Positions 6,317 through 38,586 of a stretch of DNA of 38,659 nucleotides are shown here, in pieces. Position 1 is the stretch's first letter, and each line of letters starts with the position of its first letter. The DNA is from Aequitasia blattaphilus. Its GTDB lineage: Bacteria; Bacillota; Clostridia; Lachnospirales; Lachnospiraceae. The stretch lies in NCBI RefSeq assembly GCF_024721305.1, contig NZ_JAMXOD010000025.1, forward strand, positions 1 through 38,659. The letters are read 5' to 3'. The notes under the pieces are model-generated. The model was not told the origin of the DNA and ran no database searches. It saw only the letters and a program-made list of their open reading frames with translations. Both the position numbers and the translations under genes were made by a program.

Positions 6317-8152
6317 ATGAGTAGGTTACAAGTAAAAAAATCTGACGCGGTTCAGGCATCTGTTGACCACATGTATCAAGTACTGGAACGCAGAATGATT
6401 GCCGGAGTTGTGGATTCCTGTCCGGCCGATTTTCATTTGGGGTTTCTAAAAATGTGTCATGCCCAGACCTGTGGAAAATGTGCAACGTGTCGAATTGGTT
6501 TGAAACAGCTTCAGTATTTGTTGGAAAGCATACTGGAGAACAAGGCGGATGTGGGGACAATCGACTTGATTATGGACACGGCAAAAAACATCTATGAATC
6601 AGCAGACTGTGCAATTGGTTATGAGGCTGCCAGAATGATTTATCACGGCGTGAAAGAATGCTACGATGAATACGTAAAGTATATTCAACAGAAAGGAAAT
6701 GTAGACGCAACTAAGAATCCAGTACCATGTATTGCTGATTGTCCAGCAAATGTAGACGTTCCAGGATACATGGCTCTTATGTACGAAGGACGATATGAGG
6801 ATGCGGTTCGTTTAATTAAAAGAGACAATCCATTTCCAACTACCTGTGCTTTTGTCTGTGAGCATCCCTGTGAACGAAAGTGTCGTCGAAGAATGATTGA
6901 TACGCCGGTCAATATACGTGGAATTAAAAGAGCCGCTGTTGATTTTGCTAAGAATGTACCAAACGAAAAAATTGCAGAATCTACAGGGAAGAAGATTGCA
7001 ATTGTAGGTGGAGGCCCTAGTGGGCTGAGTGCGGCTTACTACTTAACTTTGATGGGGCATGAAGTAGAAGTCTATGAGGAAAAATCGAAACTGGGAGGAA
7101 TGCTTCGTTATGGTATTCCAAGTTACCGTTTTCCGAGGGAAAGACTTCAAGATGATATTGATGCAATCATCGGTTTGGGGGTAAAGGTTCACACAAATGT
7201 ACGGATTGGACAAGATATTTCCCTTCATGACTTGAGAGCAAAGTTTGATGCGATTTATATTGCAATCGGTGCTCACACAGATAAAAAGATGGGAATTGAA
7301 GGCGAAGATGCAGAAGGTGTTATGTCTGCTGTAGACCTTTTATATCGAATTGGTGAAGAAGAAATGCCAGATTTTACTGGAAAGACTGTTGCAGTTTTAG
7401 GTGGCGGTAATGTGGCAATGGACTGTGCAAGGTCAGCCGTGAGACTTGGAGCGAAAAAAGTTTCAATTGTCTATAGAAGAAGGCAGCAAGATATGCCTGC
7501 CCTTGCAGAAGAAGTAGAAAGTGCTGTTGCAGAAGGTGTTGAAATGGTAACCTTAAAAGTTCCTTTAGCAATTGAAAAGGATGAAAAGGGCAGTGTAAAA
7601 GGACTTCGTGTTCAGCCACAAATTATCAGTTTTAGTGATCGCAAGGGAAGACCAAGCCCGAAAGATGCAGATAAGCCAGTTGAAGTGATTGATTGCGATA
7701 CCGTGTTGGTTGCAATTGGCCAAAACATTGAATTTAAGCATTTTGAGACCTCTGGTATTGATATTAAATATGGGGCAATAGGGGCTTTAGATGATGGGAA
7801 TGTTCCAGAAAACAATGGGGTGTTTGCAGGCGGAGATTGTGTAACAGGGCCGGCTACGGTAATACGTGCGATTGAAGGCGGAAAAGTTGCGGCAGCAAAT
7901 ATTGATGAATATTTGGGTTATCATCATGAAATGGAAGATGAAATTGAAATTCCAATGGTGCATCTGAATAACCGAAGAACCTGTGGCAGAGTTGAAATGA
8001 CAGAGAGAGAAGCAGGAGAAAGAAGTAAGGATTTCGAGGCGGTTGAACTTTGTATGTCAATGGAAGAAATGAAGCAAGAAGCAAATAGGTGCCTTCGTTG
8101 TGATTATTATGGATATGGATCTTTAAGAGGGGGGAGGGCACAAAAATGGTAA
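6317..8152 (+). CDS. NuoF C-terminal / GltD-like fusion flavoprotein (hydrogenase partner)
   Basis: The 611-residue protein has three parts. Residues 45-110 match the C-terminal 4Fe-4S domain of NuoF/HydB (TCGKCATCRIGLKQL; Cys52, 55, 58 and probably 98). Residues 135-195 match the Fe-S N-terminal domain of GltD/DPYD (CIADCPANVDVPGY, CAFVCEHPCERKC). The rest is a GltD/NfnB-like oxidoreductase with an FAD-binding GGGPSGLSAAYY (231-242) and an NAD(P)-binding GGGNVAMDCARSA (362-374). The FMN/NADH-binding core of NuoF is absent. It overlaps the hydrogenase gene by 7 nt, so it most likely shuttles electrons between NAD(P)H and the hydrogenase. GGAGG precedes the ATG. Cofactor preference is not certain. 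Confidence 0.88.
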   Translation: MSRLQVKKSDAVQASVDHMYQVLERRMIAGVVDSCPADFHLGFLKMCHAQTCGKCATCRIGLKQLQYLLESILENKADVGTIDLIMDTAKNIYESADCAIGYEAARMIYHGVKECYDEYVKYIQQKGNVDATKNPVPCIADCPANVDVPGYMALMYEGRYEDAVRLIKRDNPFPTTCAFVCEHPCERKCRRRMIDTPVNIRGIKRAAVDFAKNVPNEKIAESTGKKIAIVGGGPSGLSAAYYLTLMGHEVEVYEEKSKLGGMLRYGIPSYRFPRERLQDDIDAIIGLGVKVHTNVRIGQDISLHDLRAKFDAIYIAIGAHTDKKMGIEGEDAEGVMSAVDLLYRIGEEEMPDFTGKTVAVLGGGNVAMDCARSAVRLGAKKVSIVYRRRQQDMPALAEEVESAVAEGVEMVTLKVPLAIEKDEKGSVKGLRVQPQIISFSDRKGRPSPKDADKPVEVIDCDTVLVAIGQNIEFKHFETSGIDIKYGAIGALDDGNVPENNGVFAGGDCVTGPATVIRAIEGGKVAAANIDEYLGYHHEMEDEIEIPMVHLNNRRTCGRVEMTEREAGERSKDFEAVELCMSMEEMKQEANRCLRCDYYGYGSLRGGRAQKW

Positions 8153-9867
8153 ATATTACAATTGATGGCAAAAAAATTGTCGCAGATGAGAAATCTACGA
8201 TTATGGAAGCTGCAGAAAAGAATGGTATAGAGATTCCGAAATTGTGTTTTTTGAAAGAAATAAATGAAATTGGAGCCTGTCGTGTCTGTATTGTTGAAGT
8301 AGAAGGAATGGATCGGGTTGTATCCTCTTGTAACCATTTGGTAGAGGACGGCATGGTAATTCATACGAATAGCCCACGTGTGCGAGACGTTCGGAAAACA
8401 AACGTACAACTGATTCTTTCGGAACACAATAGCGATTGTCCAACATGTGTAAGAAATGGGAATTGTAGTTTGCAAAGCATTGCTGAAAATATGGGGTTAT
8501 TAAGTGTTCCTTTCCGGAAGGATTGGGAAGAAGGAAGGACAGACACTACTTTTCCGATTATACGAGATTCGACAAAGTGTATTAAATGTATGCGTTGTGT
8601 TAATATCTGTGATAAAGTTCAGAGTCTTGGGGTATGGGACATGATTAACACAGGTGCAAGAACTACTGTAGGAGTGACAGAAAATAAGGAAATGAGAGAC
8701 ACGAATTGTTCCATCTGTGGACAATGCGTAACACATTGTCCAGTAGGAGCGTTGACGGTACGAAGAGATATTCGTTCCGTATATGAGGCTCTTCATGATC
8801 CTGAGGTCGTTACCGTGGTTCAGGTTGCTCCGGCGGTTCGAGCAGGTTTTGCAGAGGCATTAGGCATCACGGAGAAGGAATTAACAACTGGACAAATGGT
8901 TACCGCTTTGAAACAACTTGGATTCGATTATGTGTTTGATACGAACTTCACAGCGGATTTAACGATTATGGAAGAAGGAAGCGAGCTTTTACATAAGCTG
9001 ACCCATAAAGATGAGTATGCGTGGCCAATGTTTACATCATGTTGTCCGGGATGGGTAAGATTTATGAAGAGCGAATTTCCTGAAATGGTAGATCAGCTTT
9101 CAACAGCAAAATCTCCCCAGCAAATGTTTGGTGCAGTAACAAAAACGTGGTTTGCAGATAAAATCGGCGTAGATCCTAGTCGCCTCTGTGTGATTTCTGT
9201 CATGCCATGTAGTGCTAAAAAATATGAATGCAGCGTAGAAGAAGTAAATGCTAACGAAGGAATTAAGGATGTAGATGTGGTTCTCATCACGAGAGAAATG
9301 CTGCAAATCATGCAAATGGATGGCATTCATCTTTCTGATTTGGAGGAAACAGAATTTGACAGTCCTCTTGGAGAAGGAACAGGTGCTGCTGTAATATTCG
9401 GTGCATCAGGAGGTGTTATGGAAGCTGCCCTTCGTTCGGCGTATTTCTTAATCAAAAATGAGAACATTGATCCGGATGCATTTAAAGAAGTGCGAGGATA
9501 TACGGATCGCCGTGAATTAGAAGTAGATATTGATGGAAATATAGTGAAGTGCGCAGTGGTATCCTCACTTAGCGAGGCAAGAAAGCTGATTAAGGACGTA
9601 AAAAAGGGAAAAGCATATTATGATTTTGTAGAAGTTATGGCCTGTCCAGGTGGCTGTTCTGGAGGCGGTGGTCAACCGATTAAAGATGGAGAGGAAAGAG
9701 CTGGAAGAAGAGCAAATATACTTTATCGATTGGATAAAAATGCTCCCATCCGTTATTCCCATGAAAATCCAGAGGTATTAACACTTTACAAAGAATTTCT
9801 TGGTAGTCCATTATCAGAGAAATCTCATCATTTGCTTCACACGGAACAAAGCAAGTGGAGATATTAA
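8146..9867 (+). CDS. [FeFe] hydrogenase catalytic subunit, HydA type
   Basis: The 573-residue protein has a plant-type [2Fe-2S] domain (Cys34, 45, 48, 62), a His-Cys3 [4Fe-4S] site (His94, Cys98, 101, 107) and two ferredoxin clusters (Cys145-155; Cys188-198). The H-cluster domain carries all three signatures: TSCCPGW (298-304), MPCSAKKYE (353-361) and MACPGGCSGGGGQP (498-511). All ligands look intact, so it should reduce protons or oxidise hydrogen. The domain set matches cytosolic modular hydrogenases that usually associate with NuoE/NuoF-like subunits; here the only partner is the GltD-like fusion upstream. Maturases HydE, F and G are not in the window. The C-terminal tail (about 520-573) is of the usual small-domain size. 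Confidence 0.96.
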   Translation: MVNITIDGKKIVADEKSTIMEAAEKNGIEIPKLCFLKEINEIGACRVCIVEVEGMDRVVSSCNHLVEDGMVIHTNSPRVRDVRKTNVQLILSEHNSDCPTCVRNGNCSLQSIAENMGLLSVPFRKDWEEGRTDTTFPIIRDSTKCIKCMRCVNICDKVQSLGVWDMINTGARTTVGVTENKEMRDTNCSICGQCVTHCPVGALTVRRDIRSVYEALHDPEVVTVVQVAPAVRAGFAEALGITEKELTTGQMVTALKQLGFDYVFDTNFTADLTIMEEGSELLHKLTHKDEYAWPMFTSCCPGWVRFMKSEFPEMVDQLSTAKSPQQMFGAVTKTWFADKIGVDPSRLCVISVMPCSAKKYECSVEEVNANEGIKDVDVVLITREMLQIMQMDGIHLSDLEETEFDSPLGEGTGAAVIFGASGGVMEAALRSAYFLIKNENIDPDAFKEVRGYTDRRELEVDIDGNIVKCAVVSSLSEARKLIKDVKKGKAYYDFVEVMACPGGCSGGGGQPIKDGEERAGRRANILYRLDKNAPIRYSHENPEVLTLYKEFLGSPLSEKSHHLLHTEQSKWRY

Positions 9868-23827: not shown

Positions 23828-23850
23828 TTCATATTTCCTTTACTTAATAT

Positions 23851-23878
23851 TTGCATTTTTATACAAAAATGATATAAT
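23851..23878 (+). promoter_or_regulatory. Promoter of the DUF5717/DUF5716/TPR unit
   Basis: TTGCAT (23851-23856) and TATAAT (23873-23878) with a 16-bp spacer in the 75-bp divergent gap. The predicted start lies about 18 nt before the first ATG, leaving a very short leader with no good ribosome site for it. Confidence 0.55.
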
Positions 23879-23902: not shown

Positions 23903-26900
23903 ATGCAACGAAAGAAGCAGGTGCACCTATTGAAGGAGAAAATTCAAAGATTTTCAAAGGGTGACTTTCAATCAACGAAGCCTAAAATCACCTTTGATGA
24001 AACAAATATTGTTATTATCATAGGAGAAGGTGAAGTATATCGGGGGAGTCTGACCATAAAAAGTAATACAAAGGATAGAGTCAGAGGGATAATATATCCC
24101 TCTTCTTTGCGTGTCCATTTAAAAGAACAAGGATTTGATGGAACGGTTTGCAGAATAGAGTATACCTACGATGGAAGAGGATTGGAACCAGGATATGTTG
24201 AAGATGGTTTTTTTGATATCGTCAGTGATACAGGTGAATACCGTCTTGCATTTACAGCCATTACAGAAAAACCTTATATCACCACTCCTTATGGGAAAGT
24301 TCAGAGCACAGAAGATTTTCGGAAACTTGCGGTGAAAGATTATTCTGAAGCGGCACGTTTGTTCCGCTCAAAAGAATTTTATGATATTTTAAAATATGAG
24401 GATGAACGGATTTTATATCTCTATGATAATATGCGTAAATGGTCTCTGGGAGAACAAGCATTAGAGGAATTCTTAGTAGGCATCAAACAGAAGGAATGTA
24501 TCTTTTTGACTTTGCAAGGAGAAGGAATGTTCTTCGAGGATGTGAAAGACGCAACAAAAGGTACTCTGACAATCATGAAAAATACATGGGGATTTATGCC
24601 GATCCGTATCGAAGCAGAAGGTGATTTTGTCCGTTTGAATAAGCAGCAAATCACAACAGATGATTTCGTTGGAAATGCGTATGAATTTGAATACGTTGTA
24701 CGGCCGGAATATCTTCACGGTGGCCGGAATTTTCTGCGTCTGAAATTTATTACTCCTTATGAAATCCTATACTATGTTGTGGAGGTTTTACAGAATGTAG
24801 ATATTGACGAAAATCATAGGGATGAAGATTTGTATATGGCTCAGATTGTAAAGAGCTATATACGACACGTTTCCGGAGTGAAAACTCTCAACGAATGGGT
24901 GGAGGAAACGTTAAAAAGGCTTAAATTGTTGAAGCAGCTGGATTCACAAAATGATATGTACCAGTTACTCACGGCTCATGTAAGTCTTATGGGAAACAAA
25001 GAAGAGGAAGCGAAGTGGATATTAGAAAACTATAATTATAATCGTTTTGCTCTTGTAAAGGATTTTGAGGTAAATAGCTATTATCTGTATTTGACAGCCC
25101 TTATAAGAGGAGAAGGCAGCCATTATGCAAGAGTAATCCAGGATTTGGAAAAAACGCATATTCGACATCAGGAATCATGGATCTTACTTTGGATGCTTTT
25201 AGATTTAGACAATCGTTATAAGAATCCAAATAAAAGACTTTCAATGCTGTCAAGCCATTATGATTTTGGGAATCATCAGGTCACATATTATCTCGAGTGC
25301 TTCTTGTGTTACAAAGAAAAACCAGCGCTTTTGAAAAAACTGGGAGATTTTGAGCTGCAAGTTTTGAATTTTGCAGCAAAGTATCAATTGATTACCAAAG
25401 AATTAGCTCTTTACCTTGCAAATTTTGCCAGTCAGCAGAAATTTTACGAAGAGAAGCTATTTGTGATTTTGGAGAGAACCTATGAAATGTATCCAGAGTC
25501 AATGATTTTAAATGCAATCTGCATCTTGCTAATTAAAGGTGGGAAAATTGCACCTGGCTATTTTAAATGGTATAAACTAGCGGTAGACAATGATTTTCGT
25601 TTGGCTAAGCTTTATGAGTATTATATGCTGACGGTAGATGAGGAACAGATGAAAGAGCCTCTTCCACGGGTGATTTATCTATACTATCTCCACGGAAATA
25701 ACTTAAATTATAAGAAATGTGCATTCCTATATGCGTCTTTGGTGCAGCATGAGGAAGAAGCAGGGGATCTTTACCTGGGATATCGTGAGCAGATGGTTAA
25801 ATTCACATGGAACCAGCTTATGAAAAGACGAGTAACGGACTCTTTGAAGATTCTCTATAAGCGTTTTTGCAGAGAAGATGAGATGGACGCAAAGAGAATC
25901 GAAGCGATGCGGGATATATGTTTCTCCTATTTGGTTACAACGAAGGTTCCCAATATGTCTAGAGTTCTTGTGATTGAAAAAGATGGAACGATTAAACAAA
26001 GGGTACCTTATGAGAGAGACGGAGCAATTATTTATTTGTATGATAAGGAATCCCGAATTATTTGGGAATCAAGAGAAGGCAGATATTATACTGATTCCAT
26101 CGCTTTTGAGACTTCGAGATTATTCTATGAACCAAGATTTTTAGAACTATGTAAGAATTACGGCGATACAACTGGAGCCTGGAAAGAAGAAGAAGTCAAA
26201 AGAGAGTTGGATTTTGATGAACTTTATCATTTGGGAATAGAAGTTTTTCCGGAGAAAGACGTTCTTCGCCTGGTTAGCAGAGAAATTCGGGAAAGCGAAT
26301 ATAAAGAGTCACAAGTTTTAACCTACTACAGTATTATACTTTTTAAAAGAGATATGTACGATAAGGCAACACTCACATATTTAGCAGAGCATTATACAGG
26401 TGGCACCCGAAACATGAAGGAGCTTTATTATGTATTGAAAGACTATAATGTTCCAACTCATGTATTAGGAGAAAAAATTATTACACAAATGATTTTTTCT
26501 GAAACCATTTTAAATGGAGATGAAATTTTTCTTGACTATTATCGTTCGGATGGAGTGTATTTCAGAGTAAAACAGGCATATCTTGCATACGTAACACGTG
26601 AGTATCTATTGCGAAAGAAAGTTTTACGCCGTTCTATTTTTGATATTATTATGTTGGAATGCCACGAGAGAGAAGAGCTTCCAGATGTGTGTAAGATTGC
26701 TTTGTTAGAGTATTTTTCAGATAAAAGCTATAGTCAGGAAGAAGGAGAAGTTCTTCGAAATGTCATGGGTGAACTATGTGAGAAAGGAATTCTTTTTGAA
26801 TTTTATATGGTTTATCCTAAGCAGTGGCTGCGAGAACTTTTGCTTTTTGACAAGGTTTTAGTTTCTTATAAGGCAAAACCCGGGAATCGAGTATGGGTGT

Positions 26901-27220
26901 GCTATAAAATCCGAAGAAATAATAAAGATGAATTAGGATTTCATAAGGAAGCATTACTTCCTACCTTTGAGACTATGTATGTCAAAGACTTTATTCTTTT
27001 TGATGATGAGGAATTGATTTACTATTTCCAAGAAACAGATGGCAATTTGGTAACAGAGAGCAAAAAGAAAAAAATTGATAATAAAAATAATGTTGCAACA
27101 GCGGGACGCTATGCAAGATTAAATGAAATGATAGGTGTTTCTCCAGCTAATTTGAAGGGAATGATGATTGCCTACGAAGAAGAAGAAATTATTTCGGAGA
27201 AAATATATCACAAATACTAG
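23903..27220 (+). CDS. Large DUF5717-type protein: two Ig-like domains plus alpha-solenoid
   Basis: The 1105-residue protein has no signal peptide or membrane helix, so it should be cytoplasmic. Two similar beta-rich blocks are visible. In the first (about 32-125), IIGEGEVYRGSLTIKS leads to IEYTYDGRGLEPG and TGEYRLAF. In the second (about 195-300), LTLQGEGMFFED leads to YEFEYVVRPEYLHGG and RLKF. A long helical region (about 310-950) looks like TPR/HEAT-type repeats, and a final beta-rich segment spans about 975-1060. I recall the family as DUF5717, found with DUF5716 in Lachnospiraceae; no function is known to me. The ATG at 23903 lacks a ribosome site; a TTG at 23930 after AGGTG is an alternative start. 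Confidence 0.75.
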   Translation: MQRKKQVHLLKEKIQRFSKGDFQSTKPKITFDETNIVIIIGEGEVYRGSLTIKSNTKDRVRGIIYPSSLRVHLKEQGFDGTVCRIEYTYDGRGLEPGYVEDGFFDIVSDTGEYRLAFTAITEKPYITTPYGKVQSTEDFRKLAVKDYSEAARLFRSKEFYDILKYEDERILYLYDNMRKWSLGEQALEEFLVGIKQKECIFLTLQGEGMFFEDVKDATKGTLTIMKNTWGFMPIRIEAEGDFVRLNKQQITTDDFVGNAYEFEYVVRPEYLHGGRNFLRLKFITPYEILYYVVEVLQNVDIDENHRDEDLYMAQIVKSYIRHVSGVKTLNEWVEETLKRLKLLKQLDSQNDMYQLLTAHVSLMGNKEEEAKWILENYNYNRFALVKDFEVNSYYLYLTALIRGEGSHYARVIQDLEKTHIRHQESWILLWMLLDLDNRYKNPNKRLSMLSSHYDFGNHQVTYYLECFLCYKEKPALLKKLGDFELQVLNFAAKYQLITKELALYLANFASQQKFYEEKLFVILERTYEMYPESMILNAICILLIKGGKIAPGYFKWYKLAVDNDFRLAKLYEYYMLTVDEEQMKEPLPRVIYLYYLHGNNLNYKKCAFLYASLVQHEEEAGDLYLGYREQMVKFTWNQLMKRRVTDSLKILYKRFCREDEMDAKRIEAMRDICFSYLVTTKVPNMSRVLVIEKDGTIKQRVPYERDGAIIYLYDKESRIIWESREGRYYTDSIAFETSRLFYEPRFLELCKNYGDTTGAWKEEEVKRELDFDELYHLGIEVFPEKDVLRLVSREIRESEYKESQVLTYYSIILFKRDMYDKATLTYLAEHYTGGTRNMKELYYVLKDYNVPTHVLGEKIITQMIFSETILNGDEIFLDYYRSDGVYFRVKQAYLAYVTREYLLRKKVLRRSIFDIIMLECHEREELPDVCKIALLEYFSDKSYSQEEGEVLRNVMGELCEKGILFEFYMVYPKQWLRELLLFDKVLVSYKAKPGNRVWVCYKIRRNNKDELGFHKEALLPTFETMYVKDFILFDDEELIYYFQETDGNLVTESKKKKIDNKNNVATAGRYARLNEMIGVSPANLKGMMIAYEEEEIISEKIYHKY

Positions 27221-27241
27221 TTATATGAGAGGAAAAAACCT

Positions 27242-28528
27242 ATGAAAAAGAGGTATATCCTGGGTTACGATTTAAACAGTAAATACAGTCAAATCAGCTT
27301 TTACAATTTCGAGGATGAAGAGCCAAAAACGTATGAGGAATCAGAGGAAGCAATGCAGATTCCATTGGCACTGGCTTTTTTCAATGATCGTTGGGTGTAT
27401 GGAAAAGAGGCGAAACGTCTTGATACAATTAATCAAGGCGTTGCTTTTACAAATTTTTTCGAGCAGGCGAAAAAGCGGGAAAAAATAGTAGCCAACGGAA
27501 AAACCTATGATGCGGTGTGGCTTTTGGCGAAATATATACGCATGACATTGAGCGAATACGAAAATATTGAATACTTAACCTTTACAGTTTCTGAAACAGA
27601 TATTGATATGTCAAATCTTTTAAAAGGGATAGGGCAACATTTAGGAGTGGAAAAAGAAAATATCAGTGTTCAAGATTATAAAGAGAGTTTTGCTCATTAT
27701 ATGTACAATCAGCCAAAAGAACTCTGGCAGTATGAAGCAGCACTTTTTTATTGTGACATTTACCAAATGAAAGCGTACATGCTGCGCAGGTTAAATCCAG
27801 CCAAGAAAAATGAAAACAATCGATTTATTACAGTTGATGAAGTGGCATCGGCTCATATTAATGAGTTGATGGCTATTTACCCGGTATATGATGAAGATCA
27901 GGCGAGATATGCAGATGAGAAGTTTAAATCCTTTGTCCAAGGGGTTTTCGACAAGAAAGTAGTTTCCAGCGTTTTTTTAACAGGAGAAGGCTTTGAAAAT
28001 GAGTGGTATCCAGACTCTTTAAGAGTTTTATGCAATGGAAGAAGAGCATTTCTTGGAAATAATCTTTACAGCAAGGGTGCATGCTATTACTCGTACAAGA
28101 TGGTAGAATCTCCTAATGAGGGGATTATATACTTAGATGATACCAGGCTTTTACAAAGAGTATGCCTGCATATAAAGAGAGAGGGAAAAGAGCAATGGTA
28201 TCCTATTGTTCCATGGGGAAGCCACTGGTATGAAGCAGATAACCAATGGGAGGTTTTGCTGGATAATACCAGAAATATTGAGGTTCGCGTAGAATCATTA
28301 GCATCAGAAGAGCTCTATACAGAGAGCATATCTCTTGCAGGCTTAGTAGAGAGGAAAGATTATTCATTACGTTTACAAATCAATGTAATGTTTTTAGATG
28401 AAAAGACATGTCGATTTACTGTAAAGGATGTTGGGTTTGGGGATTTCTATCCTGCAACCGATTTTCAGACAGAAAAGATCATCCATTTAGGAGGTATTCA
28501 TGGCCAGTTTAATTCTATGTCATCCTAA
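27242..28528 (+). CDS. DUF5716-type protein, diverged Hsp70/actin-fold (ASKHA)
   Basis: The 428-residue protein parallels Hsp70 along its length. YILGYDLNSKYSQISFY (5-21) corresponds to the phosphate-1 loop (Hsp70 GIDLGTT). PLALAFFNDRWVYGKEAKR (41-59) matches the P-S-x-VAF...x-G-x-x-A region. ALFYCDIYQMKAYML (167-181) sits where phosphate-2 would be, and VFLTGEGFENEWYP with GRRAFLGNNLYSKGA (244-280) matches the adenosine motif and its follow-on. The phosphate loops lack the usual Gly-Thr and DxG residues, so nucleotide hydrolysis may be weak or lost. The C-terminal 290-428 is beta-rich, as in an Hsp70 substrate domain. Lies 21 nt after the DUF5717 gene and overlaps the TPR gene by 29 nt. Confidence 0.75.
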   Translation: MKKRYILGYDLNSKYSQISFYNFEDEEPKTYEESEEAMQIPLALAFFNDRWVYGKEAKRLDTINQGVAFTNFFEQAKKREKIVANGKTYDAVWLLAKYIRMTLSEYENIEYLTFTVSETDIDMSNLLKGIGQHLGVEKENISVQDYKESFAHYMYNQPKELWQYEAALFYCDIYQMKAYMLRRLNPAKKNENNRFITVDEVASAHINELMAIYPVYDEDQARYADEKFKSFVQGVFDKKVVSSVFLTGEGFENEWYPDSLRVLCNGRRAFLGNNLYSKGACYYSYKMVESPNEGIIYLDDTRLLQRVCLHIKREGKEQWYPIVPWGSHWYEADNQWEVLLDNTRNIEVRVESLASEELYTESISLAGLVERKDYSLRLQINVMFLDEKTCRFTVKDVGFGDFYPATDFQTEKIIHLGGIHGQFNSMSS

Positions 28529-29273
28529 AAGGGCCAAACACCCTTATGAGATTACAAGGATACATAAAAAAATTTATACAATTGAGGAACTGTGTTATTA
28601 CTTATGCAATCATCTCTATCTGGTTGATTCAACCATTATGAATCATCAGCTTTGTTCCTGGATTGATCGTGAGTTAGAGCTGAATTCTTTGGCTAGAGGA
28701 CTGAAATTTTATTTGACCAGAAATGCAAGTATTGAGCAGTTTATAATGGAAATACTGGAGAAGTCTAATATCTATTCCGAACGAGAATTGTATCAAATGC
28801 AAGCAACTCTTGAAACATTAAAAAATCAAAAAGATGTGGAGAGAGAGAAATACAAAGGGGATACTCTTTTTGACAGCAAGGAATATGAGGCGGCGATTTT
28901 AGTTTATCAATCCATCTTAAAAAAGGAATGGGATACTACGGTAAAAAAGGAATTCTATGGACATATCCATGCCTCTTTAGGCTCGTGTTTTGGTCGATTA
29001 TTTCTCTATGATGAAGCGGTGAGAAATTATAAAGAAGCAGTGGCACTGACGGATGATGATTTGGGAATTATTAAAGCCTATTTATATAGCTGCAAGCAAG
29101 TATATACCCCCCAGGAATACACGAAAATGCTTTCTAATAACAGTCTGTATCTTAGTATTGATGGAAAGATAAAGGAAGAAACACAGGAGTGGAGGAAACA
29201 AGCAAACTTAGATGTTTCAACAGAGGATGTGCGAAGCTGGAGACAGGTATATCGCAAGATTGACAGTCACTAG
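28500..29273 (+). CDS. TPR-repeat protein, third member of the DUF5717/DUF5716 unit
   Basis: The 257-residue protein has a helical N-terminal domain (about 1-110; HKKIYTIEELCYYLCNHLYLVD) and at least two TPR-like hairpins. One is KGDTLFDSKEYEAAILVYQSIL (about 119-140); the second is around SLGSCFGRLFLYDEAVRNYKEAV (about 159-181). A strong AGGAGG placed 6 nt before the ATG lies inside the DUF5716 gene, which supports the 29-nt overlap and tight coupling. No signal peptide. Likely a cytoplasmic adaptor for the ASKHA protein and/or the DUF5717 scaffold. I do not recognise a named family. Confidence 0.75.
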   Translation: MASLILCHPKRAKHPYEITRIHKKIYTIEELCYYLCNHLYLVDSTIMNHQLCSWIDRELELNSLARGLKFYLTRNASIEQFIMEILEKSNIYSERELYQMQATLETLKNQKDVEREKYKGDTLFDSKEYEAAILVYQSILKKEWDTTVKKEFYGHIHASLGSCFGRLFLYDEAVRNYKEAVALTDDDLGIIKAYLYSCKQVYTPQEYTKMLSNNSLYLSIDGKIKEETQEWRKQANLDVSTEDVRSWRQVYRKIDSH

Positions 29274-29292
29274 AGAGCTATGCTATTATGTT

Positions 29293-35981: not shown

Positions 35982-37262
35982 GTGAAATTAGAAATGGGAC
36001 ACATATTCATCAAGGACATCGTTTTTTCTGATACATCGAAGATTGAAGATGGGGTATTGTATGTATCAAAAGCAGAATTGGAAAAAATCGTTCTATCAGA
36101 TGAAAAATTAAAAGAGGTGTCATTTGATGTAGCAAAACCGGGAGAGAGTGTACGTATTACACCGGTTAAGGATGTTATTGAGCCAAGAGTCAAAGTAGAA
36201 GGAGAGGGTGGTATCTTCCCAGGCGTAATTGCAAAAGTAGGTACTGTAGGTAGTGGAAAAACTTATGCCCTTAAAGGAATGGCAGTTGTAACTGCTGGAA
36301 AAATTGTTGGTTTCCAAGAGGGAATCATTGATATGACTGGCCCTGGAGCAGAATACACTCCATTTTCAAAATTAAACAATTTAGTTATGGTATGTGAACC
36401 AATTGAAGATATAAAACCACATCAATATGAAAAAGCAGTTAGACTTGCAGGTTTCAGAGTGGCAACTTATCTTGGAGAGCTTTCAAAAAGCTTGACTCCA
36501 GATGAAACGAAGGTTTATGAGACACAGACAATCATGGAAGGAAAAGAAAAATATCCAGATCTTCCAAGAGTTGCATATGTACAGATGCTTCAAAGCCAAG
36601 GTCTTTTACATGACACATATGTATATGGTGTGGACGCAAAGCAAACCTTATCAACAATTATGAATCCAACAGAAGTGATGGATGGAGCTATTGTATCAGG
36701 TAACTGTGTATCAGCATGTGACAAGAACACAACTTATCACCATTTAAACAACCCGGTTATTCATGATATGTTAGAAGAACATGGTAAAACCTTGAACTTT
36801 GTTTGTCAGATTTTGACGAACGAAAACGTATATTTGGCAGATAAAGAACGTTCTTCAGACTGGACCGCTAAAATGTGTGAAATGTTGGATCTTGATGGAG
36901 TAATCGTATCTCAGGAAGGATTTGGAAATCCAGATACGGACTTAATCATGAACTGTAAAAAGATTGAGGCAAAAGGTGTTAAAACAGTTATTATTACTGA
37001 CGAATATGCAGGAAGAGACGGTAAGAGCCAATCTCTTGCAGATGCAGATGCAGCAGCAGATGCGGTTGTCACAGGAGGTAATGCAAATCAAGTAATTATC
37101 CTTCCAAAACTTGACAAAGTAATTGGAACTTTAGATTACGTGACAAAGATTGCGGGAGCTTCGGATGAAACACTTAGAGAAGATGGATCATTAGAAGTAG
37201 AGTTACAGGTAATTACAGGTGCTACAAACGAAACTGGTTTCAACAAACTTAGCGCTAGATAG
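35982..37262 (+). CDS. grdE: Glycine reductase component B, alpha/beta proprotein (GrdE)
   Basis: The 426-residue proprotein has the self-cleavage site IVSGNCVSACDKNTTYHH. Known GrdE is cut before this Cys (Asn241-Cys242 here) and the Cys becomes a pyruvoyl group that binds glycine as a Schiff base. With selenoprotein GrdB it forms the substrate-specific component B that passes a carboxymethyl group to selenoprotein A. It starts with GTG at 35982 after GGAGGG, giving the family's KLEMGHIFIKDI start. Paralogues act on sarcosine or betaine; the glycine riboswitch favours glycine. Confidence 0.94.
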   Translation: MKLEMGHIFIKDIVFSDTSKIEDGVLYVSKAELEKIVLSDEKLKEVSFDVAKPGESVRITPVKDVIEPRVKVEGEGGIFPGVIAKVGTVGSGKTYALKGMAVVTAGKIVGFQEGIIDMTGPGAEYTPFSKLNNLVMVCEPIEDIKPHQYEKAVRLAGFRVATYLGELSKSLTPDETKVYETQTIMEGKEKYPDLPRVAYVQMLQSQGLLHDTYVYGVDAKQTLSTIMNPTEVMDGAIVSGNCVSACDKNTTYHHLNNPVIHDMLEEHGKTLNFVCQILTNENVYLADKERSSDWTAKMCEMLDLDGVIVSQEGFGNPDTDLIMNCKKIEAKGVKTVIITDEYAGRDGKSQSLADADAAADAVVTGGNANQVIILPKLDKVIGTLDYVTKIAGASDETLREDGSLEVELQVITGATNETGFNKLSAR

Positions 37263-37272
37263 GAGGAGAAAA

Positions 37273-38586
37273 ATGTCTAAAATAAGAGTAGTACATTATA
37301 TTAACCAATTCTTCGCTAATATCGGTGGAGAAGAAAAAGCTGATTTTCCTGCAGAACTTCGTGTAGGTGAGGTTGTTGGACCTGGTATGGCTTTTAAAGC
37401 AAGTTTTAAGGATGAAGCAGAGATTATTGCTACAATAGTATGTGGGGATTCTTACTTTAATGAGAATCTGGACAAAGCGAAAGCAGATATTTTAGCAATG
37501 GTAAAAGAGCAAAATCCAGATGTGTTTATTGCAGGCCCTGCATTTAATGCGGGAAGATATGGAGTTGCTTGTGGTACAATAGCGGATGCAGTACAACAGG
37601 AATTAGGAATTCCAGCTGTTACGGGAATGTATAAAGAAAATCCTGGAGCAGATATGTTTAAGGATAAGGTATACACAGTTGCAACAAAAAATAGTGCAGC
37701 AGGCATGAGAGATGCAGTGGCAAAAATGGCGCCATTAGCGTTGAAACTTGCCAAAAAAGAGGAAATTGGGGTTTCTTCTGAAGAAGGATATATGCCAAAT
37801 GGAATCCGTAAGAATTTCTTTGAAAATGAAAGAGGTTCGAAAAGAGCAATCAATATGTTATTGGCAAAACTGGCAGGCAAGGAGTTTACAACAGAGTATC
37901 CTATGCCAGACTTTGACCGGGTAGATCCTATGCCAGCAGTGAAAGATTTGGCTCATGCCACAATCGCTCTTGTTACTTCTGGTGGTATTGTGCCAAAGGG
38001 AAATCCAGATCATATCGAAAGTTCATCTGCTTCACGTTATGGAGAGTATGATATTACAGGTGTTATGGATTTGACAGAAGATACGTATGAAACTGCCCAT
38101 GGTGGATACGATCCTGTATATGCAAATGAAGATGCAGATAGAGTTTTGCCAGTTGATGTTTTAAGAGATCTTGAAAAAGAGGGCAAAATTGGAAAGCTAC
38201 ATCATCTTTTCTATACCACTACAGGAAATGGTACTGCAGTTGCTTCATCTAAGGCATTTGCAGAGGAATTTTCAAAGAAATTAATAGCAGATGGTGTGGA
38301 TGCTGTTATTTTAACCTCCACTTGAGGTACCTGTACTCGTTGCGGTGCAACGATGGTTAAAGAAATTGAAAGAGCTGGCATACCAGTGGTTCATGTATGT
38401 ACAGTTACACCAATTTCCATGACAGTTGGTGCAAATAGAATCGTACCAGCTATTGCAATTCCACATCCACTGGGAAATCCAGCATTGGATAAAAAAGAAG
38501 AAAAAGAACTTCGCCGCCAAATCGTGGAGAAGGCTTTAGATGCTCTTGCTACAGAGGTTGATGGACAGACAGTTTTTGACAAGTAA
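37273..38586 (+). CDS. grdB: Glycine reductase component B, selenoprotein GrdB (Sec at codon 351)
   Basis: The reading frame from ATG 37273 (AGGAGGAG upstream) is interrupted only by TGA at 38323-38325. It continues in frame with GTCTRCGATMVKEIERAGIP to a TAA at 38584-38586, giving 437 residues, the normal GrdB length. The TGA sits in ILTST-U-GTCTRCG, the known selenocysteine site of GrdB, and a SECIS-like hairpin follows. The protein carries the component B active-site Sec that attacks the pyruvoyl-bound substrate. Cells must have SelA, SelB, SelC and SelD elsewhere. Ordinary callers would split it into a 350-residue and a 77-residue piece. Confidence 0.96.
38323..38352 (+). promoter_or_regulatory. 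Selenocysteine UGA codon with bacterial SECIS-like hairpin
   Basis: The TGA (38323-38325) is followed 12 nt later by CGTTGC (38338-38343), the 3-nt loop GGT and GCAACG (38347-38352), a perfect 6-bp apical stem. A GGU loop and this spacing resemble SelB-recognised bacterial SECIS elements. Confidence 0.85.

Follow-up and report, generated by a model that had tools for sequence, protein, structure and literature searches.

Do three tightly packed genes of Aequitasia blattaphilus (Lachnospirales, Lachnospiraceae), encoding two members of Pfam families of unknown function and a repeat protein, represent what remains of a larger Hsp70 system? The genes, here called A, B and C, lie at positions 23903..29273 of a DNA stretch of 38,659 nucleotides (contig NZ_JAMXOD010000025.1, forward strand; hereafter the window), and an earlier note made from the sequence alone had taken them for a chaperone-like or scaffold complex built on a pseudo-ATPase. 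Descent of the middle protein, B, from Hsp70 together with loss of the catalytic motifs is, in our judgement, nearly certain, and a probability of about 0.42 is given to the reading of the trio as a reduced core from an Hsp70 machine confined to a single bacterial order. The three genes are the following:

23903..27220, + strand: gene A, DUF5717_N plus DUF5717, 1105 aa, predicted cytosolic scaffold (open reading frame (ORF), Pfam and AlphaFold)
27242..28528, + strand: gene B, DUF5716, 428 aa, pseudo-Hsp70 (ORF, Pfam and profile/fold comparison)
28500..29273, + strand: gene C, tetratricopeptide repeat (TPR) protein, 257 aa, overlapping B by 29 nt (ORF and sub-threshold Pfam matches)

Pfam assigned the window B to DUF5716_C (337 bits), the sole family reported, with no match to HSP70 at E-values up to 0.1. 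A PDB sequence search with the single B sequence found nothing; an alignment of B sequences was required, and with it all seven matches were DnaK. Profile comparison by hhalign in local mode gave B a probability of 94.8 against DnaK, with 26 controls at or below 1.8, and of 4.0 against a one-sequence MreB profile. Fold comparison returned an ASKHA (acetate and sugar kinase/Hsp70/actin) nucleotide-binding domain plus a substrate-binding beta domain (SBD-beta), as in Hsp70; neither actin nor MreB was among the 50 fold matches listed for B, which excludes no relation. With the limits of subdomain IIB, SBD-beta and lid set by the analyst, B has on average residues at 28 of the 80 positions of IIB, 37 of the 55 of the stretch preceding it, 85 of the 115 of SBD-beta and 11 of the 120 of the lid. 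Subdomain IIB is contacted by GrpE in DnaK. The following features were located in B:

27251..28114, + strand: residues 4-291, reduced Hsp70 nucleotide-binding domain, subdomain IIB mostly lost
27263..27292, + strand: degenerate phosphate-1 loop, GYDLNSKYSQ (translation and aligned positions)
27977..27994, + strand: adenosine-motif position, LTGEGF replacing a GGS-type motif (translation and aligned positions)
28139..28486, + strand: residues 300-415, Hsp70 substrate-binding beta domain, without lid

The related families of the order offer a larger context for these genes. In 16 of the 20 loci fetched from them, seven genes follow one another on one strand in the order A - Hsp70-1 - GrpE-like - Hsp70-2 - Hsp70-3 - Hsp70-4 - C, with gaps mostly below 100 nt and up to about 1 kb in L052 and L053. 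L068 fits this order up to the contig end, other genes intervene in L051 and L067, where some members are absent within the fetched stretch, and L064 has GrpE and Hsp70-2 only. In locus L057, Pfam identifies A as DUF5717, Hsp70-1 as HSP70 (256.6 bits), the GrpE-like protein of 644 aa as GrpE (50.2 bits, cut-off 25.8), Hsp70-2 as both DUF5716_C (93.5 bits) and HSP70 (63.6 bits), above both cut-offs, Hsp70-3 as HSP70 (213 bits) and DUF5716_C (38.7 bits), Hsp70-4 as HSP70 (323 bits) and VWA (42 bits), and C as TPR; no J domain was found among the Pfam matches of the seven proteins. GrpE also exceeded its cut-off in L049, L059 and L061. The Hsp70-2 of L059 falls under the DUF5716_C cut-off (24.1 vs 34.7), and neither this protein nor that of L049 matched HSP70 at an E-value of 0.001. 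Both phosphate motifs are kept in 18/18 Hsp70-1, 15/16 Hsp70-4 and 0/19 Hsp70-2 sequences, and Hsp70-3 keeps one of them in 17/18 and the other in 18/18. The three intact Hsp70s and the GrpE-like protein lay beyond what the earlier note could see; its interpretation holds as regards the fold, the phosphate loops, partner A and the conservation of the trio in the own family. As a separate observation, the von Willebrand factor A (vWA) domain that Pfam finds in the Hsp70-4 of L057 (encoded at 6495-8573) is C-terminal, at the position of the lid, and a motif resembling a metal ion-dependent adhesion site, D[TS][TS][GS]S, is present in 12 of the 16 Hsp70-4 sequences.

Degeneration of the ATPase site is found throughout the B proteins of the window's own family, for which 34 sequences were counted. 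The phosphate-1 and phosphate-2 motifs are each present in 0/34, the equivalent of K70 is lysine in two, that of E171 is glutamate in none, and that of T199 is threonine or serine in six (kept in 1/19 Hsp70-2). Traces of the ancestral site persist, including the phosphate-1 aspartate (25/34) and the first glycine of the adenosine motif (34/34), the second being absent from all 34. The Hsp70-like motifs quoted in the earlier note were recovered in the translation, and its degenerate phosphate loops and ASKHA fold agree with these counts and with the fold comparison. Thus, B is Hsp70-derived, yet it is not a canonical Hsp70, since the defining catalytic features looked for are not found in it. 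Loss of the ATPase motifs would also suit a purely structural scaffold, in which the Hsp70 fold of B is a docking module without client binding that organises a cytoplasmic assembly. Close to the end of the substrate-binding domain, a D-x-GFG motif, present in 30/34 B, 13/19 Hsp70-2 and 7/18 Hsp70-3 sequences (0/18 Hsp70-1, 0/16 Hsp70-4 and 0/5 DnaK), could be a docking surface for such an assembly, and A consists mostly of Ig-type and solenoid domains, which are typical of scaffolds. Nevertheless, four substrate-groove positions are hydrophobic in 32, 33, 34 and 34 of the 34 B sequences, and the ancestral context comprises intact Hsp70s and a GrpE-like protein, both of which speak against a mere docking module; we regard the structural scaffold as unlikely, though worth keeping in view.

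Phylogenetic analysis connects the seven-gene operon with the trio. In a 51-sequence tree, B is nested within Hsp70-2, its closest sister being the Hsp70-2 of family f120 (L049; ultrafast bootstrap 100), and B, Hsp70-2 and Hsp70-3 form a clade (ultrafast bootstrap 100). A FastTree analysis of 109 sequences gave supports of 0.997, 0.987 (B plus Hsp70-2) and 1.0, and of 0.837 for B alone. Computationally, B can be shown to derive from the Hsp70-2 paralogue, which would already have been degenerate inside the seven-gene operon. This placement suggests that Hsp70-2 and Hsp70-3 are products of a duplication, that the ATPase motifs of Hsp70-2 were lost before Lachnospiraceae arose, and that this family then lost Hsp70-1, Hsp70-3, Hsp70-4 and the GrpE-like gene from the locus, B losing most of IIB.

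The trio is a nearly constant component of its own family. DUF5716_C was detected in 147 of 150 Lachnospiraceae genomes, with one match each; of the three others, two (G022 and G075) are without A as well, and in G081 A lies at the edge of a contig. In the order as a whole, 66 of 147 genomes had DUF5716_C matches at E <=0.001 (61 above cut-off), comprising 19 of the own family and 47 of other families, and 36 of these 47 had two matches. At wider ranks, a class-level draw gave 13/293 genomes above the DUF5716_C cut-off, all of the own family, and phylum-level draws gave B in 4/299 and A in 4/298 genomes, again all of the own family; below the cut-off, one B match came from outside the order, in G839 (E 2.7e-4). 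Of 293 class genomes, 19 matched a profile of sister-family A proteins at E <=0.001. Thirteen were clear own-family matches; the other six lie outside the order, are short (E 8e-5 to 8e-4, frames spanning 225-303 aa) and are taken for chance or generic repeats. A and B also co-occur: A was found in 40/40 own-family genomes with B, in 17 of the 18 genomes of the order that have a B-type match (G492, the one exception, carries part of A on locus L068) and in none of the 19 genomes of the order without B.

This distribution bears on two further explanations. The trio, or the ancestral operon, could be a conflict (defence) system akin to the GAP1-N2 GTPase systems; HSP70 and GrpE are reported in about 14% of GAP1-N2 neighbourhoods, together with fusions of FNIII proteins to DnaJ or TPR (PMC7159879). 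A single copy in 147/150 genomes is unlike patchy defence systems, no GAP1 domain is found among the Pfam matches of A, and PADLOC returned two partial matches to B only (E 0.0015 and 0.0067, at most 16.2 bits). A defence role was rejected on the near-universal presence and the lack of a convincing PADLOC match, and is highly improbable. An equally remote explanation ties the trio to sporulation or another family-shared trait instead of general proteostasis. The trio is limited to a single order, in which many of the genomes examined have SpoIVA; however, SpoIVA is absent from the window's genome and from 10 of 41 trio-bearing own-family genomes, and is present in 16 of the 19 genomes of the order that have neither A nor B. 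A sporulation-specific role was rejected on this distribution of a single marker. Conflict and sporulation systems are much less likely.

Physical linkage and selection were also considered. A and B share a contig in 36 of 40 own-family genomes, exceptions including G007 and G044, which break at contig ends, and G041, where B has part of A next to it. The three genes are neighbours in the 41 own-family loci examined (in L102, B is masked by an antisense ORF and known through its Pfam match). A further set comprised 80 loci from named relatives at 51-61% identity, most of them bearing the label Lachnospiraceae or that of a genus (Dorea, Faecalicatena, Mediterraneibacter and others), and a few no more than Eubacteriales, Clostridiales or bacterium. 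B was called in 78 of them, and in 73 both neighbours lie within 200 nt; in the remaining loci C is masked by an antisense ORF (three) or the A-B gap is 261 nt (L146) or 220 nt (L150). Two loci had no B call, owing to an antisense ORF (L131) and a contig end (L151). Median dN/dS (the ratio of nonsynonymous to synonymous substitution rates) in the window's clade was 0.037 for B (204 usable pairs), 0.057 for A (76) and 0.064 for C (177), and all three genes are under strong purifying selection.

The proposed partners of B are A and C. A matches DUF5717_N (658 bits) and DUF5717 (267 bits), and its AlphaFold model (mean predicted local distance difference test score, pLDDT, 84.3; predicted template modelling score, pTM, 0.47) comprises these parts:

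23987..24301, + strand: residues 29-133, PapD/ASH-like Ig domain 1 (AlphaFold model)
24506..24796, + strand: residues 202-298, PapD/ASH-like Ig domain 2 (AlphaFold model)
24815..25921, + strand: residues 305-673, alpha-helical TPR-like solenoid 1 (AlphaFold model, weak Foldseek matches)
25925..26119, + strand: residues 675-739, small beta region (AlphaFold model)
26132..26836, + strand: residues 744-978, solenoid 2 (AlphaFold model)
26852..27079, + strand: residues 984-1059, C-terminal beta region (AlphaFold model)

The model thus bears out the Ig-plus-solenoid composition first read from the translation. Foldseek matches to solenoid 1 were weak (e.g. Naa15, Paf1-complex and PPR10 chains), and a profile search with A gave weak TPR matches only, the best to BepA (E 0.15). 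Gene A is split in L049, L053, L058, L065 and L066, with an upstream ORF of 247-396 aa and a downstream one of 885-907 aa, and undivided in L056 (1207 aa) and L057 (1128 aa). For C, Pfam gave sub-threshold TPR matches only. C adjoins B in the loci examined, and in 6 of 147 own-family genomes the two are naturally fused, with B frames of 690-727 aa. No strongly hydrophobic 19-residue stretch was found in the trio proteins (maximum hydropathy 1.46), suggesting that all three are probably cytosolic. A physical complex of A, B and C is considered likely.

Reading the trio as the reduced core of an Hsp70 machine leads to a putative mechanism. Without an ATP cycle, B would bind segments of peptides or nascent chains; A, through its Ig domains and TPR-like solenoids, would be the scaffold positioning B, and C would be a TPR linker. 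Clients would be handed on, probably and by analogy, to DnaK; no further full-length Hsp70 besides B was found in the window's genome, where an HSP70 family search matched DnaK and MreB only. The working principle would be that of Ssz1, the eukaryotic non-canonical Hsp70 of the ribosome-associated complex (RAC), which in yeast is reported to pass clients to Ssb (PMC7083937). Complex formation, client binding and transfer are steps that we infer, and the client-relay mechanism as a whole is tentative. More doubtful still is the fullest version, an order-specific second Hsp70 machine, separate from DnaK and hitherto undescribed, that was cut down in Lachnospiraceae to an ATP-independent, Ssz1-like client-binding complex belonging to the core physiology of this dominant gut family. 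Besides a scaffold of PapD/ASH-Ig and solenoid domains and the TPR protein, that machine would comprise a GrpE-like exchange factor and four paralogous Hsp70s, of which one is dead and another bears a vWA domain instead of the lid.

A different use of the same proteins is conceivable, in which the trio regulates DnaK or another Hsp70, B being a decoy or pseudo-Hsp70 subunit and A and C controlling access. Of 16 own-family genomes bearing the trio, 11 have no full-length Hsp70 other than DnaK and B, and five have further ones; the RAC literature describes a non-canonical Hsp70 acting with a canonical one. Nothing here favours contact with DnaK, however, and sister families have the same protein beside three operon Hsp70s, so a regulatory role is judged quite improbable. 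In one own-family genome (G130:C19:113509-115155), a second HSP70 match besides DnaK lies in an open frame of 1095 aa.

Several results weigh against the trio as a reduced Hsp70 core. No J domain is found among the Pfam matches of A, B and C, as the structural scaffold would have it, whereas RAC includes one. In the fold ranking Ssz1 does not stand out, being tied with DnaK (20.6 vs 20.9 for DnaK). The position aligned with V436 of DnaK is a gap in 33/34 B sequences, which may reflect either an alignment error or a real loss of a groove residue. Purifying selection and co-retention are compatible with any important function. The trio is not indispensable in every lineage, given that G022 and G075 are without both A and B. 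As to linkage, the regular separation that the earlier note named as a refutation is not seen in the own family, with G030 the sole own-family genome found truly to separate A from B-C; in 7/9 genomes of family f121, however, A and Hsp70-2 are either about 40 kb from each other or on separate contigs. They are also on different contigs in G459 (f130) and G494 (f131), these separations being taken from contigs as assembled.

Comparison with known systems places B in the Hsp70/DnaK family (PF00012) by profile homology and by its nucleotide-binding and SBD-beta folds, from which it differs in lacking catalytic and phosphate-binding residues, most of IIB and the lid. With Ssz1 it shares the condition of a non-canonical Hsp70 subunit, whereas its partners are Ig/solenoid and TPR proteins and not a J-protein; since B descends from a local paralogue, any functional likeness to Ssz1 would be convergent. 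Among published themes, the closest one encountered is that of the GAP1-N2 conflict systems with HSP70/GrpE, where HSP70 and GrpE genes of actinobacteria and firmicutes are reported to lie beside an FNIII-repeat protein with DnaJ or TPR (PMC7159879). The combination of HSP70 and GrpE with Ig-type and TPR proteins recurs here in the sister-family operons only, not in the window; in contrast to those systems, A has no GAP1 match and the gene set is a family-wide core. Neither "DUF571" nor "Lachnospir" occurs in the main text of that paper. The window proteins are members of Pfam DUF5716 and DUF5717, named families of unknown function, and the present analysis adds their tie to Hsp70 and the seven-gene operon. 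The sole mention of these families found in the literature was unrelated, judged from its title, and literature on Hsp70 combinations and essential genes gave, among the papers inspected, no account of the trio or operon, subscription literature being mostly outside the search. If the reduced-core reading is true, DUF5716 and DUF5717 gain a defined origin, and a dominant gut family carries a single-copy core complex, derived from chaperones, without described function. It would also mean that a multi-gene Hsp70 machine lost its motors and kept a catalytically dead subunit, a clean case that would make an ATP-less Hsp70 role testable in bacteria.

At the level of expression signals, the following elements were read from the window:

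23850..23878, + strand: promoter-like TTTGCA-17-TATAAT 5' of the trio (consensus match, 10/12)
27227..27232, + strand: Shine-Dalgarno-like GAGAGG 5' of gene B (read from sequence)
28489..28494, + strand: ribosome-binding-site-like AGGAGG for gene C, within gene B (read from sequence)

The ORFs confirm three co-directional, packed genes, with a 21-nt gap between A and B and a 29-nt overlap between B and C. This overlap is not due to chance, because overlaps of 26 nt (40/75) or 29 nt (33/75) recur in the loci measured in named relatives. The single promoter supposed earlier is present as a consensus match only and is not proved to drive the trio, since such matches are about as frequent in shuffled sequence (26 observed across the region vs 20.5 expected). 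For the gene downstream of the trio there is a separate promoter-like match (29260-29289). Which start codon gene A uses is uncertain, as ORF starts vary among relatives, and NCBIfam gave no match above cut-off for the trio proteins. Elsewhere in the window, a Fic-domain protein with a Fic-like C-terminal domain is encoded at 393-2356, adjoined on the opposite strand by an AraC-type regulator. From 37219-38325 onwards lies glycine reductase component B (GRDB, 577 bits), whose frame runs on through an in-frame TGA at 38323-38325 (ORF residue 369), consistent with the selenocysteine that the family is named for.

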